From: Phyllobacterium bourgognense
Lineage (GTDB): Bacteria > Pseudomonadota > Alphaproteobacteria > Rhizobiales > Rhizobiaceae
Assembly: GCF_003337575.1 (NCBI RefSeq)
Contig: NZ_QPJM01000007.1
Location: 124,001-188,000 of the forward strand
Direction: 5' to 3'
DNA: 64,000 bases
The notes under the pieces: generated by a model
What the model saw: only the letters and a program-made list of their open reading frames with translations
What the model was told of the DNA's origin: nothing
Database searches by the model: none
Translations under genes and position numbers: made by a program
Part shown: one piece after another, positions 5,067 through 17,649 of the stretch
Layout of the letters: the number at the start of each line of letters is the position of its first letter
How positions within the stretch are numbered: position 1 is the first letter of the stretch

Positions 5067-5139
5067 AATGAGCTGGTTCTGGATAAACAAAGCTTCCGAT
5101 AGAGGCTGTTGAGATTCACGCCGTGATGCGCCGAAAACG

Positions 5140-5242
5140 GTGGCTTTCGGGCTCGCCCTGCGACGAGCACGGCGCACATAAAGCACGCGAGCACCGGAGG
5201 CGCAGAAAGTCGCGTCAGATGACCGCGCAGTAGACTTTACGA
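5140..5242 (-). repeat. Dispersed intergenic repeat, copy A
   Basis: This region lies just past the 3' end of the minus-strand 163-aa gene. It shares the core GAGCACCGGA-GCG-AGAAA--CGC-TCAGATG-CC (5189-5223) with 34861-34895. Both copies have the same orientation and the same distance past a minus-strand stop codon. It also encodes spurious peptides such as RARKPPFSAHHGVNLNS, which I recall as a recurrent intergenic translation in Rhizobiales genomes. It is therefore treated as a repeat and not a gene. Confidence 0.55.
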
Positions 5243-5250
5243 GCGGGCTC

Positions 5251-5742
5251 TCAGAAGTCGACACGCGGCGTATCCTGCATGGGATTTTCAAAAAGCATCC
5301 AGAACGAAACGCCGTGAGCCTCCTCATACCAGGCCTCGAAGCGCTCAAGCGCATCATCGATGCCTGACGTTTCGCCAGGCATCTCCGCCTCGTCCGAAGC
5401 ACGATGGAGCGCAATGACCACTGGCGCAAAATGCGTAAGGATTGCATCCCGCGCTTCACTTTCCGACGACCAGCCCAGCCTCGTTCGCAACAGCGCAAGC
5501 GCGCACGCGACGGCGATTTCCTCACCGGTCCGCTCGGCCGGATCACTATCGTCCCCCATTTGCGGCTTTGCCGCCTCGGCGACGGACCGCATCAGGTTCA
5601 TCCGGCGAAAGGCGAAAGCACGTTCGCGCTCGAGTGCCGCCATGCGGGTTGCCGCTTCCCGCCGATAGGTTGTTTCGGCCGATTGCGCCTTGTCGGCGGC
5701 TTGCTGCAGCCGCTCGATATAGGTGGTTACCGTCGTCGTCAT
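5251..5742 (-). CDS. Hypothetical protein translationally coupled to selB
   Basis: This 163-aa protein is mostly helical. The N-terminal part (residues about 5-50) is charged and coiled-coil-like, and the C-terminal half (LRTRLGWSSESEARDAILTH, ALERFEAWYEEAHGV) is acidic with tryptophans. There is no signal peptide or membrane segment. Its ATG overlaps the selB stop (ATGA at 5739-5742), and I see no ribosome-binding sequence before it, so it likely depends on ribosomes finishing selB, which requires passage through selC. I do not recognise the family. Position suggests an accessory role in selenocysteine or formate metabolism, but that is inference only. Confidence 0.7.
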   Translation of the reverse strand: MTTTVTTYIERLQQAADKAQSAETTYRREAATRMAALERERAFAFRRMNLMRSVAEAAKPQMGDDSDPAERTGEEIAVACALALLRTRLGWSSESEARDAILTHFAPVVIALHRASDEAEMPGETSGIDDALERFEAWYEEAHGVSFWMLFENPMQDTPRVDF

Positions 5743-7823
5743 CGAGAGCTACCGGAGTGACCGGGCGATGGCGGAAGAGAGTGGGAGTCGAACCCACCAA
5801 AGACCGTCTCTCGGCCCCTCCCGGATTTGAAGTCCGGACGCCCCACCGGGGACGATTCTCCTCCAGAAACAGTATTTTCGCCCGTCACACCATCTGTCCG
5901 ATCGGCGAAGAGATCCAGACGGTTCCGGTTGACGCGGCGAAGGTCACCACGGCGTAGTGTGATGCTATGGTGGTCGAAGAAATCAAGGATCTGGATTGCA
6001 ACCTTGCGACCATTTTCGACCCGGTCGCGAAATTGCGCGGCGGTAAACCAGCCTTCATTGGAAGCTGTGCTGATCTCGACGATAATGGCAACCATTTCTG
6101 CAACCGTGCTTCGCAGGAAGAAATGGTCGTGCGCCACCTCATGCACTTTGCCAATGCGGCTGCCCAGCTTCAGTAGCCGGCGCACCTGCGGTTCCGGCAT
6201 CGCGAACAACACGGCAATATCGCGGACGCGCGGCGGGCGGAACCGTTCGGCTCCGCCGAGTAGCGGCTCGATCGCATCCCACAGCTGCTCGTCAGCCGGA
6301 GCCATCGTCACTTTGTGACCGGAAAGCCGCACCCAGGCTCCATCAAGCGCGATCTCCCCGCCGCGGGCAAGACTATGCAAGGCTGCACGGAACGCAGGTA
6401 CGGGTAGGCGCAGCTCAAGCTGTGTCCGCAGCCGTTCAATCCCGATCCCCAACAAATCCGGATTGTCGGCATGAAAAATTTCGAGCCGGTCCAGAAGATC
6501 TCGCTGGAAGTTCTTCCACTGCCCAAGCGATATGGCGACAACCGCAGCATCGACAGGCAACTGCACCGCGCCCATCAATTCTACCAGCGCATTGACGTCT
6601 TCCATCACCAAGGCCCTGTCACGCGCAAACGCCGTAATGTCCAGATAAAATGGCGGCACTGCAAGCAATGCTGCCAGCGCCCGGTCCGGCTCGATCAATT
6701 CGTGCGCATCGAGCTGTGTCCTTCGCTCCGGGGTGCGTCGTCTGCGGGCAGGAGCACGCAAATCCAGGAAGCGGCCACCACCAATCGTGCGGCGCGCAGA
6801 CGTGTCGCGGATGACGTAACGATCGCCAACCGCTGCAGCGATCGACCGGTCAAGCACAAGTTGCACGCGGGTGCGTGTCCCGGGGGCCACTGGCTCATCA
6901 CTCAGCAAAGCGATGCGAGCGCCTGTCTCGGCCGACGCATGGTGCAGCCGAACCGGGAACCAGTGACCGATCGGCTTGCGTTCGGAGCCGAGCACACGCA
7001 ATGTCGCGTCAATCCGGCTCGTCGGCGCATGCAGGGTGGGGTCAAGCACCACGTCGCCACGACTGATCGCTGCCTTCGTAATGTCTGCGCCGACGAGGTT
7101 GAGAGCACAACGATCACCGGCTCGGCCAACCTCACTCGGCCGGTTCTGTGCGTGGATTGAACGGATGCGGGCGGAAAGGCCAGACGGGCTCACCGTCACA
7201 TGATCATCGACGGAGATCATTCCCGAAAGGACAGTTCCGGTTACAACGGTGCCCGCCCCCTGGATTGTGAATGAACGATCGACCGCCAGCCGGAAGCGGC
7301 CAGTTGCGCGGCGGCGGGCGAACCTGCGTGCAGCGTCAATGATTTCATCGCGCAATGCCGCGATGCCGCGATCCGAAACCGTTGAAACGGCAATGATCGG
7401 AGCATCGCGAAGTGCCGTTCCGGCAAGTTCATTTCGTATTTCGATTTCGACCTCGGTGAGCCGTTCTTCCTGCACCAGATCAGCCTTGGTGAGAGCAACG
7501 ACACCGCGTTCGATACCGAGGAGGTCGATGATAGCGAGATGCTCGCGTGTCTGGGGCATTGCCCCGTCATCCGCAGCAACGACCAGCAGGGCAAAATCGA
7601 TACCGCTGGCCCCGGCGAGCATGGTGTGGATGAACTTCTCGTGCCCCGGCACATCGACAAAGCCAAGTATCTCAGCCCCTTCTACAGGCATATAGGCAAA
7701 GCCGAGATCGATCGAAATACCCCGGGCCTTTTCCTCTTTCAGCCGATCGGTGTCGACATTGGTCAGCGCCTTGACCAGCGATGTCTTGCCATGATCGATA
7801 TGCCCTGCGGTACCGACGATCAT
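5739..7823 (-). CDS. selB: Selenocysteine-specific elongation factor SelB, reading through selC
   Basis: SelB delivers selenocysteinyl-tRNA to UGA codons that carry a SECIS hairpin. GTPase motifs are GHIDHGKT (residues 7-14), DVPGHEKF (57-64) and TKAD (112-115). EF-Tu-like domains follow, then four winged-helix repeats ending near [15 protein letters not shown] and RLDLF, where E. coli SelB also ends. The frame then runs on: after some 14 more residues it passes through all 96 nt of the tRNA-Sec gene in phase (residues about 654-685) and stops nine codons later, giving 694 aa. Its ATG overlaps the selA stop (ATGA), and its own TGA overlaps the next ATG. The extra C-terminal tail of about 55 residues is unlikely to be functional protein. 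Confidence 0.93.
5769..5864 (-). tRNA. selC: tRNA-Sec (anticodon UCA) with encoded CCA
   Basis: The 96-nt length with encoded CCA is typical of bacterial tRNA-Sec. The acceptor stem has eight pairs, GGAGGAGA with TCTCTTCC (one G-U), followed by discriminator G and CCA. The anticodon loop CTTCAAA carries UCA (complement of 5828-5830). A long variable arm and the T loop TTCGACTC are visible. It reads UGA for selenocysteine after SerRS charging and SelA conversion. It lies wholly inside the selB reading frame on the same strand. No separate promoter is evident, so it is probably cut out of the operon transcript by RNase P. Confidence 0.95.
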
Positions 7824-9250
7824 GGCTTGCCCACCTTGTCGATTTCCGGCCCCATATCAAAATTTGCGATGCCGGCGAAATTCGCCGCAAAACCGGCCTC
7901 GTCCTCAAGACAGCGCAGATCCAGCACCAGCGCTCCGCGCTCGATACGGCCGATGACCGGCATCGGAAGTCTCCTGAGTGCAGCCGCCAGTTCAGTGAGC
8001 ATGCTCCCGCTGCTCTCCATCGGCGTCAGGGCCAAGCCTGCGCTCGGCACGGTGGAAAGCGGCAGAGCCCCGGAGCCGATCTGGCTCTCACACGAAATAA
8101 CGGAAACGCTGAATCCGCCTTGCAGCGCACGCCCTACGATCGGTGCCAGCCGCTGCGCCTGTGCGTCGATGTCGCCCTGTGAACGGGTAAGCAGCCGCAT
8201 GGTTGGAAGCCGCTCGCTCAAGCTGTCCGGATCGCGATAGAGCTGCAATGTCGCTATCAGCGCCGCAAGGCGGATTTTGTCGACACGCAGCGCGCGTTTC
8301 ATAGGGTTCTTGTTGATCGTCTCGATGAGTGACTTGCGTCCGACGATGAACCCGGCCTGCGGGCCGCCCAGGAGCTTGTCACCGGAAAAGGTCACGATGT
8401 CGGCACCCTCGGCGATCGCTTCGCGTACGGTCGGCTCGTGCGCAAGTCCGAAACGGGTGAGATCCGTCAGTGTGCCGGAACCAAGGTCATTGACCAGGGG
8501 AACGTCCTTGCTGCGGGCGATGCCAGCCAGTTCGCTCGCACCCACCTCCTTGGTGAAGCCCTCGATGCGATAGTTGGAGGTATGGACCTTCAGTATCAGG
8601 CCAGTATCTGGCCCGATGGCATTGCGATAATCCCGGGCATGGGTGCGGTTCGTGGTACCGACCTCGACAAGACGCGCACCGGCACGCGCCATAATATCGG
8701 GCATGCGGAAAGCCCCTCCGATTTCGATCAGCTCACCACGCGAGACGATGGCTTCCCTGCCCGCGGCCAGACTGTTCAGAACCAAAAGGACAGCCGCCGC
8801 ATTGTTGTTGACGATGGTCGCCTCTTCCGCCCCTGTCAGTTCGCAGATCAACGAACGCAGATGATCATCGCGTTCGCCGCGCTTGCCGCTCTCAAGATCG
8901 AATTCGAGAGCAACGGCCTCGCGCATGGCCGCCGTTGCAGCCTCGATTGCCGCTTGCGCCAGCAATGCGCGACCGAGATTCGTGTGCAGTACCGTACCCG
9001 TCAGATTAAACAGGGGTCGGAGCGATGACTTGTCACCCGCCTCGAGGCTGGCTAGCGCGGCCGCCATGATGGTTTCCCCGGAGGGGGCGTTATGGCCATT
9101 ACGCACGTCATCACGTGTCTCCGCCAATGCACTCCGCAAGGCTTCAGTGAGAGCCGGACGTCCAAAACGCTCGATGATGCCAGCGGCCGATGCCGACTTC
9201 AGAAGCTGGTCCACTGAAGGAAGGCGGCGCAAGTTGGCATTGCTGTCCAT
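7820..9250 (-). CDS. selA: L-seryl-tRNA(Sec) selenium transferase
   Basis: SelA converts seryl-tRNA-Sec to selenocysteinyl-tRNA-Sec with selenophosphate and PLP. The PLP lysine is in [12 protein letters not shown] (Lys292 counting from the ATG). [22 protein letters not shown] and [10 protein letters not shown] are further family signatures. I chose the ATG at 9250 (476 aa) over the in-frame GTG at 9256, because GGAGG abuts the GTG but is correctly spaced for the ATG. The stop overlaps the selB start (ATGA), and fdhE ends 10 bases upstream, so it lies within the fdo-sel operon. Confidence 0.95.
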
Positions 9251-9260
9251 TTCCACCCTC

Positions 9261-11883: not shown

Positions 11884-14800
11884 CTATGCCACCGGCCCGG
11901 CGATGGGCTCGATATTGACCAGGAACGCCTTGTATTCAGGCGTCTCGATATTGGCGTCACCGACGAAAGGCGTGAGCGAGTTTGGACCGAAGCCCTTCTT
12001 CGCTGCCCCCGTGAAACCCCAGTGCAGCGGAATGCCGACCACATGAACCGGCTTGCCGTCGCAGATCAAAGGTTTGATCCGCTTCGTGACGACCACCTTG
12101 GCCTTGATCGATCCGCGCTTGGACCACACGCGTACCCAGCCACCTTTGACGATGCCTTTCTCCTTCGCGAGTTCTTCCGATATCTCGACGAAGAATTCCG
12201 GCTGCAGGACGGCATTCACCCAGACATGCTTGGTCCAGTAGTGGAAGTGTTCGGTAAGACGGTAGGACGTTGCCGCATAAGGAAACTCCTGCGAAGCGGG
12301 TTCGGCAAACTGCGCAAAATCGCCCTTGAATACTCGCGCCGCTGGATTGCCGCGGACCTTCGGAGCGATGAGGTTTGTGACCGGCGACTCGAACGGTTCG
12401 TAATGAGCCGGGAATGGTCCATCGCGCATCATGCCACGTACGAAGAGGCGCGACACGCCCTCCGCATTCATGATGAACGGACCGACGTCCTGCGGCTTGG
12501 CTGTCGGCGCAATATCCGGCACGTCGTAGCCTGACCATTTCTGACCGTCCCACTCGATCAGCTTGCGGCTGGGGTCCCAGGCCTTGCCATTCAGGTCCGC
12601 CGAAGCTCGGTTGTAGAGGATGCGGCGGTTGACGGGCCACGAAAATGCCCATTTCGAGTAGGCTCCGGTCTCATCGGGATCCGACGTATCGCGCCGGGCC
12701 ATGTTGTTGCCGTTCTCGTTGAAGCAGCCGGAATAAATCCAGCAGCCGCTCGTCGTGGAGCCGTCATCCCGCAACGCGGCGAAGCTTGGCACCAGCTTGC
12801 CGGCTTCAACCACCACTTTGGTAGGATCAGTCGGATCCATCACCGGGGCCAGCGCTTTGCCGTTCAGTTCCTTGGCAAGCTCTTCGGCAGTCGGCTCACC
12901 CGGATCGGCATAGGACCAGTCGAGATTGACGATCGGATCGGGGAACGCTCCACCCTCCTTGCGGTAAAGGTCCCTGAGACGCGTATAGATCTGCGCCATT
13001 ATCCAGTTGTCCGTCTTGGCTTCACCGGGAGCCGTACCGCCAGGCCAATGCCACTGCAGCCAGCGTCCGGAATTGGTGAGGGAACCCTCGTCTTCAGCAA
13101 AGCAGGTCGAAGGCAGTTGATAGACCTCCGTCTGGATTTGCGAAGGATCAACATCGTTGAACTCGCCGTGATTTTCCCAGAACCGCGATGTTTCCGTATC
13201 GAGCGGATCCATCGTCACGAGGAACTTGAGCTTCGACAGCGATGCGGTCAGCTTCGTTCTGTTGGGCGCTGCAAGCAGAGGGTTGAACCCCTGGCAGATG
13301 TATCCCGTCATCTTGCCTTGGTTCATAAGTTCGAAAGCGCGCAGCACATCGTAGCCAGGCACGTCGAGCTTTGGCAGCCAGTCATAGGCGAAATGGTTTT
13401 CCGGCGTCGCCGCCGGGCCCCACATCGACTTGAGGAAACTGACGAAGAACTTCCTGTAGTTCTGCCAGTAGCTCATCTGGTTTGGCCGGAGTGGCTTGAA
13501 GCCGCGTGTCGCCATATAGCTGTCGAAATCCACCTCTTTCTCGGTTGGTAGCGTCATGTAGCCCGGAAGCAGGTTCGACATCAGGCCTACATCGGTCAGC
13601 CCCTGGATATTGGAATGCCCGCGCAGTGCGTTCATGCCACCACCGCGCACGCCGATATTGCCGAGGACCAGTTGTAACATCGCCATCGAGCGGATGTTTT
13701 GCGAACCCTTCGAATGCTGGGTCCAGCCAAGCGCGTACATGGACGTCATCGTCTTGGTCGGCGTTGAGCATTCCGAGATCATCTCGGCCACCTTGAGAAA
13801 CTTCTCCTTGGGTGTGCCGCAGATGCGCTCGACCATTTCGGGCGTATAGACAGAGACATGCGCCTTCAACATGTTCCACACGCAACGTGGATGCGTCAGC
13901 GTGTCATCGACGACAGCGTAACCGTCATCGCCGATTACATAATCCCAACTCGACTTGTCGTAGTCGCGCTTTGTCTCATCGTAACCGGTAAACAGGCCGT
14001 CCTTGTATTCGAAGCCGTCCTTGACGATGAAGGCGGCGTTGGTGAATGCCTTCACATAATCCCACTGCACCTTGCCGTTCTGGATGCAGTAATTCATGAC
14101 ACCGAGCAGGAAAGCTATGTCCGACCCCTGACGGATGGGCGCGTACACGTCGGCAACCGACGCAGAGCGCGTGAAGCGGGGATCGACGACGATAAGCTTG
14201 GCACCACGGTTGGCCTTGGCCTCCGTGACCCATTTGAAACCGCAAGGATGCGCTTCGGCGGCATTGCCACCCATGATGACGACAAGATCCGTATTCCTGA
14301 TATCGGTCCAGGAATTGGTCATTGCACCACGGCCAAATGTTGGGCCCAAACTGGACACCGTTGGGCCGTGTCAGACACGTGCCTGGTTATCGAATACCAG
14401 CATTCCGGCGCTGCGCACGACTTTATAGGTGGCAAACGCTGTTTCGTTCGTTGTTGCCGAGGCGGCCAGGAAGCCCGTCGTCGTCCATCGATTGACGGTC
14501 ACGCCGTCATTGTTCTTCTGGACAAAATTACCGTCGCGATCGTCCTTCATCAACCGGGCGATGCGATCAAGCGCGTCATTCCAGGAGATGCGTTCGAACT
14601 TGTCCGAGCCGGGCTTGCGGACCATCGGATATTTCAGGCGTGTCTCGGCCTTGACGAAGTCGAGCAGGGCCGCACCCTTCGGGCACAGCGTTCCACGATT
14701 TGTCGGATGGTCGGTGTCGCCCTCGATATGGACGATCTCGGCCTTTTCGCCCTTTTTCAGGTCGCCCTTCGAATACATGATGATACCGCATGCAACCGAG

Positions 14801-14970
14801 CAATAGGGGCAGGTATTCCGGGTTTCGGTGGTGTTTACGAGTTTGAAAGCGCGGATCGCTTCGGCATGGGCGGCTTCGATCTCGCCGAAGCCAAAGGCAC
14901 CAAGCGCCGTACCCGCAACACCCGCGCCGGTCGCCGCAAGAAACTGGCGCCGCGAGAGTTCCATGTTCAT
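11884..14970 (-). CDS. fdoG: Selenocysteine formate dehydrogenase catalytic (alpha) subunit
   Basis: This is a 1028-aa selenoprotein that oxidises formate to CO2 in the periplasm at a bis-MGD cofactor. The Tat signal [14 protein letters not shown] opens the protein. Cys54, Cys57, Cys61 and Cys96 bind the proximal 4Fe-4S cluster. Codon 200 is an in-frame TGA (14371-14373) in the motif NQARV-Sec-HGPTV, exactly the position of selenocysteine in FdnG/FdoG, and the frame stays open for another 828 codons. A hairpin lies three bases after the TGA. Conventional ORF calling splits this gene into 199-aa and 824-aa pieces. It is first gene of fdoGHI-fdhE-selAB. The three-codon frame ATG CTA TGA overlaps the start codon. 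Confidence 0.96.
14343..14373 (-). promoter_or_regulatory. Bacterial SECIS element of fdoG
   Basis: After the UGA (14373-14371) come three bases, then GGCCCAA (14367-14361), an 11-nt loop CGGUGUCCAGU and UUGGGCC (14349-14343). This gives a perfect seven-pair stem at the distance used by bacterial SECIS elements. The first codons after UGA (CAC GGC CCA) match the E. coli fdnG/fdhF SECIS region as I recall it. A GU in the loop fits the SelB-recognised apical bases. Confidence 0.8.
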
Positions 14971-16587: not shown

Positions 16588-17649
16588 ATGGATGATAGAA
16601 CGTCATTGTCGTCGGTACGCCTGACCTCGCTGTCCCATGGTGGCGGATGCGGATGCAAGCTGGCACCATCTGTCTTGCAGCAATTGCTTGCGGATCAACC
16701 TGCCGCCGGACCGTTTGCCCGGCTGCTTGTCGGAACCGAAACCGGTGACGATGCCGCGGTGTGGCAGCTCGATGACGAAACCTGTGTGATCGCGACGACG
16801 GACTTCTTCATGCCGATGGTCGATGATCCTTTCGACTTCGGCCGGATCGCGGCAACCAATGCGATATCCGATGTCTATGCAATGGGCGGAAAACCGATCA
16901 TGGCACTCGCCATTCTCGGCATGCCGATCGACAAGCTGCCGGCCGAGACAGTGCGCGAGATCCTGAAGGGCGGAAGCGCCATCTGCTCCGAAGCAGGTAT
17001 CCCTGTTGCCGGTGGCCATTCGATCGATTCTCCCGAGCCGATCTACGGCCTGGCGGTCATCGGCACCTGCCCCATTGCCAGTCTGCGGCGTAACAGCGGC
17101 GCCAGGCCCGGTGACACGCTGATTTTGACCAAGGCGCTTGGTGTCGGAATTTACTCGGCGGCGTTCAAGAAAGGCATGTTGCCGGCGGACGCCTATGCCG
17201 AACTCATCGCATCGACGACGCACCTCAACCGCATCGGCGCCGAACTCGCCAAGGATGCGGATGTGCATGCCATTACCGACGTCACCGGCTTCGGCATTCT
17301 CGGCCATGCCCTTGAGATGGCAAGAGGGTCGAATGTGCATATCTCGCTGCGCGCGGACGATGTTGCCGTGTTTATTCACGGCGCCGAACTCGCAAAGGAG
17401 GGTTTCGTCACCGGCGCCTCGCATCGCAATTGGGCAAGCTACGATACAGAAATCGTCTTGCCCGCCGATTTCCCCCTATGGCGGCGTCACCTGCTGACCG
17501 ATCCCCAGACCTCTGGCGGACTGCTCGTATCCTGCAAGGCGGAACGTGCAGCGGACGTGCTCCAACAGATCACCACTGCGGGCTATCCTGCAGCCAGGAT
17601 CATTGGTTCGGTCGAGACGGGCGAGCCTGGATTGCACGTCGTTACCTGA
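16588..17649 (+). CDS. selD: Selenide, water dikinase (selenophosphate synthetase)
   Basis: SelD makes selenophosphate, the selenium donor for SelA, from selenide and ATP. The N-terminal glycine-rich segment GGGCGCK places Cys21 and Lys24 at the catalytic positions, so this is the cysteine rather than the selenocysteine form. [23 protein letters not shown] and [16 protein letters not shown] are AIR-synthase-superfamily motifs. The length of 353 aa is normal. It completes the local Sec system, on the strand opposite to selAB. Confidence 0.96.

Follow-up and report, generated by a model that had tools for sequence, protein, structure and literature searches.

The selB gene of Phyllobacterium bourgognense belongs to a clade in which, as sequence comparison indicates, the reading frame through a nested selenocysteine tRNA gene, selC, and a stop codon directly behind it are kept, while the spacers on either side of selC have changed in both length and sequence. 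As the explanation of this pattern we lean towards a SelB tail that is translated and tolerated, in which case the competition between tRNA processing and translation would mostly be a tolerated side effect. The nested arrangement, in which an entire tRNA-Sec gene lies within selB, was described by Mukai 2021 for Rhizobiales and some other Alphaproteobacteria (PMC8124441). The nested selC genes are mostly 96 or 93 nt long, which keeps the frame, and the selB stop overlaps the next start; tRNA processing was proposed to leave a nonstop selB mRNA, making SelB and tRNA-Sec alternative products of the same transcript, and selC remnants (Sinorhizobium meliloti, Rhizobium sp. NFR07) as well as losses (Methylopila, some Ensifer) were reported (PMC8124441). 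Two reviews repeat the arrangement (PMC9312934, PMC13188914), and Mukai 2021 is cited in PMC12685816; among the papers listed by a literature search with subscription journals mostly outside its scope, there was no experimental test of the model. The nested arrangement and the exclusion model have been known since 2021, an explicit role of tmRNA being absent from PMC8124441. New here is the comparative evidence for preservation of the frame through selC and of the prompt stop; the text of PMC8124441 contains none of the underlying tests of phase, stop placement and substitutions.

The locus lies in a window of 64 kb, the whole stretch of DNA that was analysed (Table 1). The initial annotation had the selB frame pass through a complete 96-nt selC and end nine codons later in an ATGA, and this description is exact to the base. 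The tRNA-Sec gene, with anticodon tca, is the sole tRNA that ARAGORN finds in the window; its limits agree with those proposed earlier, its length, including the encoded CCA, equals 32 codons, and the Rfam tRNA-Sec model RF01852 matches 5773..5864 of the minus strand with 75.6 bits (gathering score 47). Since 7823 - 5864 = 1959 = 653 x 3, the first base of selC opens a codon, and the gene occupies selB codons 654-685 in phase 0. The TGA that follows it (5741..5739) overlaps the ATG (5742..5740) of the downstream ORF. The host gene passes the NCBIfam selB model TIGR00475 (399.4 bits, cut-off 242.25), with a match ending at residue 631, and its Pfam domains are GTP_EFTU, Beta-barrel_SelB, SelB-wing_2 and SelB-wing_3; there is no stop codon between the last winged helix and selC, the F of the RLDLF motif being residue 639.

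Table 1. Features of the selB–selC overlap and its neighbourhood, in window coordinates.
Feature	Position	Strand	Basis
selB ORF, 694 codons (694 aa) plus TGA	5739..7823	-	ORF list, TIGR00475, Pfam
Conserved SelB fold, residues 1-639, to RLDLF	5907..7823	-	alignment of 36 SelB proteins; AlphaFold2 pLDDT
Spacer 1, 14 codons from F639 to selC, stop-free	5865..5906	-	sequence
selC, tRNA-Sec, 96 nt with encoded CCA	5769..5864	-	ARAGORN, RF01852
Spacer 2, nine codons from CCA end to selB stop	5742..5768	-	sequence
ATGA, overlap of selB stop and start of next ORF	5739..5742	-	sequence
ORF1 (downstream ORF), 163 aa	5251..5742	-	ORF list; tblastn homologues in nested relatives
selA, end overlaps selB start by four bases	7820..9256	-	TIGR00474, 601.3 bits
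Molybdopterin oxidoreductase gene, in-frame TGA = residue 200 (14371..14373)	11884..14970	-	domains
selD-like gene	16588..17649	+	AIRS domains

The locus thus has the hallmarks of the nested class: a whole tRNA-Sec gene within the selB ORF, on the same strand and of a length divisible by three, together with a selB stop that shares bases with the next start codon, a trait of many, not all, members. With the genes of Mukai 2021 it shares the in-frame 96-nt tRNA-Sec, the C-terminal extension beginning with Gly, the stop/start overlap and the exclusion model; nothing essential differs, and it is a further member of the class, from a Phyllobacterium genome. Taken alone, an open frame in one genome is weak evidence, because selC is free of stops in all three forward frames and the gap before it spans no more than 14 codons; what lifts the arrangement above chance is its recurrence among relatives.

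The four-base overlap of selA and selB (7820..7823) shows how tightly the sel genes are packed. In the 5' direction from selB, selA is followed by fdhE, a cytochrome b561 gene and the molybdopterin oxidoreductase gene; from its domains and its fdhE neighbour, we take the latter to encode the large subunit of a Sec-containing formate dehydrogenase, a likely customer of selB and selC. The AIRS-domain gene is presumably selD, named here after the family to which we assign it. Together with selA, the selD-like gene and the oxidoreductase gene with its in-frame TGA form a putative selenocysteine system near selC. For the downstream 163-aa ORF, Pfam and NCBIfam yielded no known domain. A simple scan of 5100..6900 detected a single sigma-70-like site, which lies on the plus strand and not on the minus strand, and no terminator-like site; as evidence against a separate selC promoter this is weak, since the scan covers sigma-70 sites only. 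In the genome assembly (5.6 Mb, 61 contigs, 96.49% complete), selC was the only tRNA-Sec gene found: RF01852 gave 12 matches, two of them above the cut-off, and the second is a tRNA-Ser according to ARAGORN. The ribosome-rescue genes of the genome include those for tmRNA, SmpB and a member of NF006718/PRK09256, which is presumably the ArfB rescue family.

For the comparison across relatives, 192 SelB loci were entered, and removal of 30 duplicates and 2 loci without the SelB C-terminus left 160 non-redundant ones; L024-L030, which are EF-Tu-like and match only to SelB residue 350-369, and L136-L144 had been excluded beforehand. Loci were taken from 30 of the 50 genomes matching in a class search and from 30 of the 47 matching in a family search, to which 12 of the remaining 17 were added; two more are L021 and L022. 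As the SelB of the window served as the query, the sample leans towards its relatives. With selC sought by ARAGORN only, within 400 nt, the 160 SelB 3' ends divide into 67 with a nested selC, 5 with a partial overlap, 47 with a stop before selC and 41 with no selC found in that range. The clade that contains the window holds 121 loci (66 nested, 29 with a stop before selC, 3 with partial overlaps in phases 0, 0 and 1, and 23 without a nearby selC); its delimitation and all counts of changes rest on one FastTree tree of SelB proteins, the counts being parsimony minima. One nested locus, L208 (genome G718), lies outside this clade, has its selC in phase 2 and is excluded from the 66. Its neighbours L206 and L207 overlap partially, the former in phase 1 and the latter in phase 0, and these three arrangements possibly have separate origins.

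Not all relatives, then, are without a stop ahead of selC, in contrast to what the initial annotation had looked for: 47 of 160 loci stop earlier. It had also held that a stop between the winged helix and selC in relatives would refute its reading, and exactly such a stop is present in relatives such as Brucella/Ochrobactrum. In six loci of this group (L054, L055, L056, L097, L099, L105), selC lies 261-293 nt past the end of SelB homology, and by eye the gap contains a small lipoprotein-like ORF, with Gly-Cys after a hydrophobic stretch, which in several loci starts at an ATGA or GTGA overlapping the selB stop.

Within the clade, the phase of nested selC genes is invariant: all 66 are in phase 0, whereas the 29 clade loci with a stop before selC, which serve as the control, are spread over the three phases (10/11/8). 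Spacer 1 ranges from 12 to 66 nt in the nested loci, always as a multiple of three, and its length changed at least 23 times on the tree, never out of frame. If 1/2 to 4/5 of neutral indels are assumed to fall out of frame, the chance of this outcome is 2e-6 to 8e-15. Nesting as such does not impose the phase: after in silico indels of 1 or 2 nt in the spacer, 67-84% of the ORFs remain nested, since 51 of the 67 nested loci have a selC without a stop in any of its three frames. Chance, or a sequencing or assembly artefact, could readily account for one genome, in which a gap of 14 codons and a tRNA gene rich in GC are easily open, but not for 66 loci that share one clade, come from several genera and are always in phase 0; the comparison across relatives refutes this explanation, which can be practically discounted. 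As phase-0 nesting requires, the frame from the first selC base is open in all 66 nested genes. The same frame contains a stop in 20 of 54 non-nested selC genes (17 TAG, 2 TAA and 1 TGA at tRNA position 55; 1 TGA at position 52).

The position of the stop behind selC follows the same frame. In 65 of the 66 nested loci the first stop in the selB frame occurs within 33 nt past selC, as opposed to 12 and 4 of 66 for the other two frames, counts for which the nested loci, being related, are not independent; in the 47 loci with a stop before selC, the corresponding numbers are 14, 10 and 10 by frame. Despite this relatedness, the nested loci show at least 13 changes of the stop codon itself and at least 20 of the length of spacer 2. 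Counted from the start of selC, the tail has a median of 38 codons in frame and medians of 53 and 59.5 codons in the other frames, so that a frameshift would lengthen it. Constancy of phase 0 despite the changes in the spacers, combined with stops near selC, makes the frame and the prompt stop look selected, and their preservation argues that ribosomes read through selC.

One reading of this preservation is translational coupling, in which the frame is kept only to deliver ribosomes to the ATGA of the downstream ORF. Overlapping starts are indeed frequent: in 30 of 67 nested loci an ATGA, GTGA or TTGA opens an ORF of at least 60 codons, these ORFs not all being homologous, and homologues of ORF1 or ORF2 lie downstream in 42 of 67. 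Loci of the Mesorhizobium type, however, have their stop ~6 nt past selC and ORF1 further down, with no overlap, and the frame is equally kept in the 36 nested loci in which no long downstream ORF overlaps, with 12 length changes of spacer 1 and none out of frame (chance 1e-3 to 4e-8 under the same assumption). Since loci that lack an overlapping start also keep the frame, coupling alone cannot explain it, and we regard this reading as highly improbable.

Equally, SelB might make functional use of the tail encoded by selC, with selection acting on the peptide sequence of this tail. The exclusive use of phase 0, though the other phases are mostly open, would fit this reading, as would three loci with broken tRNA genes (L011, L013, L163), in which remnants of selC stay in the selB frame. 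The substitution pattern points the other way. Within selC there is no codon-position signal (changes at the three positions 52/25/43 for nested genes, compared with 120/88/124 for the non-nested ones, p = 0.30; positions 1+2 against 3, p = 0.83), and a peptide constraint there was dropped as unsupported, nested and non-nested genes showing no difference by codon position. In the spacers, pN/pS is high (spacer 1, 0.65-0.84; spacer 2, 0.62-0.90; adjacent SelB domain, 0.15-0.27); over all nested loci, changes by codon position amount to 105/111/145 in spacer 1 (p = 0.02) and 52/40/80 in spacer 2 (p = 0.0006), a weak third-position excess. The GC3 of spacer 1, which the scripts counted from residue 641 (36 nt), is 0.51 in comparison with 0.77 in the SelB domain, a codon usage that is not gene-like. 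An AlphaFold2 model built with 36 sequences has pLDDT <50 from residue 642 and ~30 over 642-694, so the SelB tail 642-694 is predicted to be disordered. Together with the repeated losses of the tail on the tree, these properties make a selected peptide very unlikely.

The remnants in the three loci derive from the 5' part of selC, as does a degenerate one in the selB frame of L086, which is Rhizobium sp. NFR07; by eye, the breakpoints lie just past the anticodon loop in L011 and L013 and in the variable arm in L163. A stem between spacer 1 and spacer 2 flanking selC (fold of 5739..5920) was considered separately and rejected: z was below -2 in 0 of 67 cases, with a mean of -0.28 against shuffles.

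The model of Mukai 2021 and of the initial annotation goes further: processing of selC would exclude translation of selB and thereby balance SelB against tRNA-Sec, with tmRNA, in the version of the annotation, clearing the nonstop message. The geometry behind it holds, since a cut at the mature 5' end of selC would strip the selB mRNA of its stop codon, and any ribosome traversing the full ORF would have to unfold selC. In addition to this nested geometry, the preserved frame and prompt stop, the single selC found in the genome, the lack of a minus-strand sigma-70-like site in 5100..6900 and the presence of genes for tmRNA and SmpB are all compatible with such a switch. Two points weaken the idea that the cell depends on the physical conflict: relatives have early stops, and stops before selC were gained recurrently, apparently at close to the neutral rate. 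Changes between the nested state and a stop before selC number 9 in the clade, or 11 with partial overlaps, some of the loci having long spacers, which suggest insertions; the neutral expectation is about 8.3 stop gains in spacer 1 and about 2.4 in selC, a crude estimate that uses parsimony counts, columns filled in at least half of the rows and one substitution model. Because this expectation is crude, modest selection against an early stop may exist; stop gains near the neutral count imply that a stop before selC seems tolerated, a poor fit with a switch that cells need. Likewise, selC is open in three frames in most nested loci, and ribosome transit alone would not need phase 0.

For tmRNA, the claim of a required partner is reduced to that of a rescue system that is encoded, with SmpB, in the genome. 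A second likely rescue factor, the NF006718/PRK09256 member, is encoded beside it, so tmRNA is not shown to be indispensable, and any need for it is weakened further because a nonstop message would already encode the whole SelB fold. A dedicated switch is possible, but gains no support over a tolerated side effect, and on the genomic evidence it appears somewhat doubtful.

Autoregulation of SelB in Escherichia coli reportedly relies on an mRNA element, a SECIS-like binding site, and involves no tRNA within the coding sequence. As summarised in PMC8124441, it likewise holds SelB proportional to the selenocysteine machinery (Thanbichler and Boeck 2002). A tRNA gene likewise situated whole inside a protein gene, in direct orientation, is tRNA-Lys in the mitochondrial cox1 of Armadillidium vulgare (Doublet 2015, in the account of PMC8124441). 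That case concerns a compact mitochondrial genome, whereas the present one concerns a bacterial genome of 5.6 Mb.

The tolerated tail, the explanation towards which we lean, could operate in the following manner: Ribosomes would translate through selC and produce SelB with a disordered tail of about 55 residues. Selection would purge frameshifts, as these would turn a short, harmless tail into a longer one, often extending into the next gene. Each transcript would yield either mature tRNA-Sec and a nonstop selB fragment or full-length SelB, and this competition may keep SelB low. The strict phase, the prompt stops, the third-position excess in the spacers, the predicted disorder of the tail and the near-neutral gain of stops favour this reading, while the absence of a codon-position signal inside selC and the GC3 of spacer 1 count against it. 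Alternatively, transit in phase 0 and a stop within ~11 codons might form a selected termination device, by which translation of selB would gate the maturation of the sole tRNA-Sec and tie Sec-tRNA to SelB. Such a device would account for the strictness of the phase and for the prompt termination, even in loci that lack an overlapping downstream ORF; we consider it unlikely.

Where a bacterial protein gene encloses a tRNA gene, translation and RNA processing are in competition for one stretch of nucleotides. The negative result is equally relevant: neither the peptide nor the lack of an earlier stop shows signs of strong selection. The published hypothesis is thereby narrowed to two options, a switch or a tolerated tail. 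Should the cell make use of the competition, it would provide a simple means of matching an elongation factor to the tRNA that it serves.
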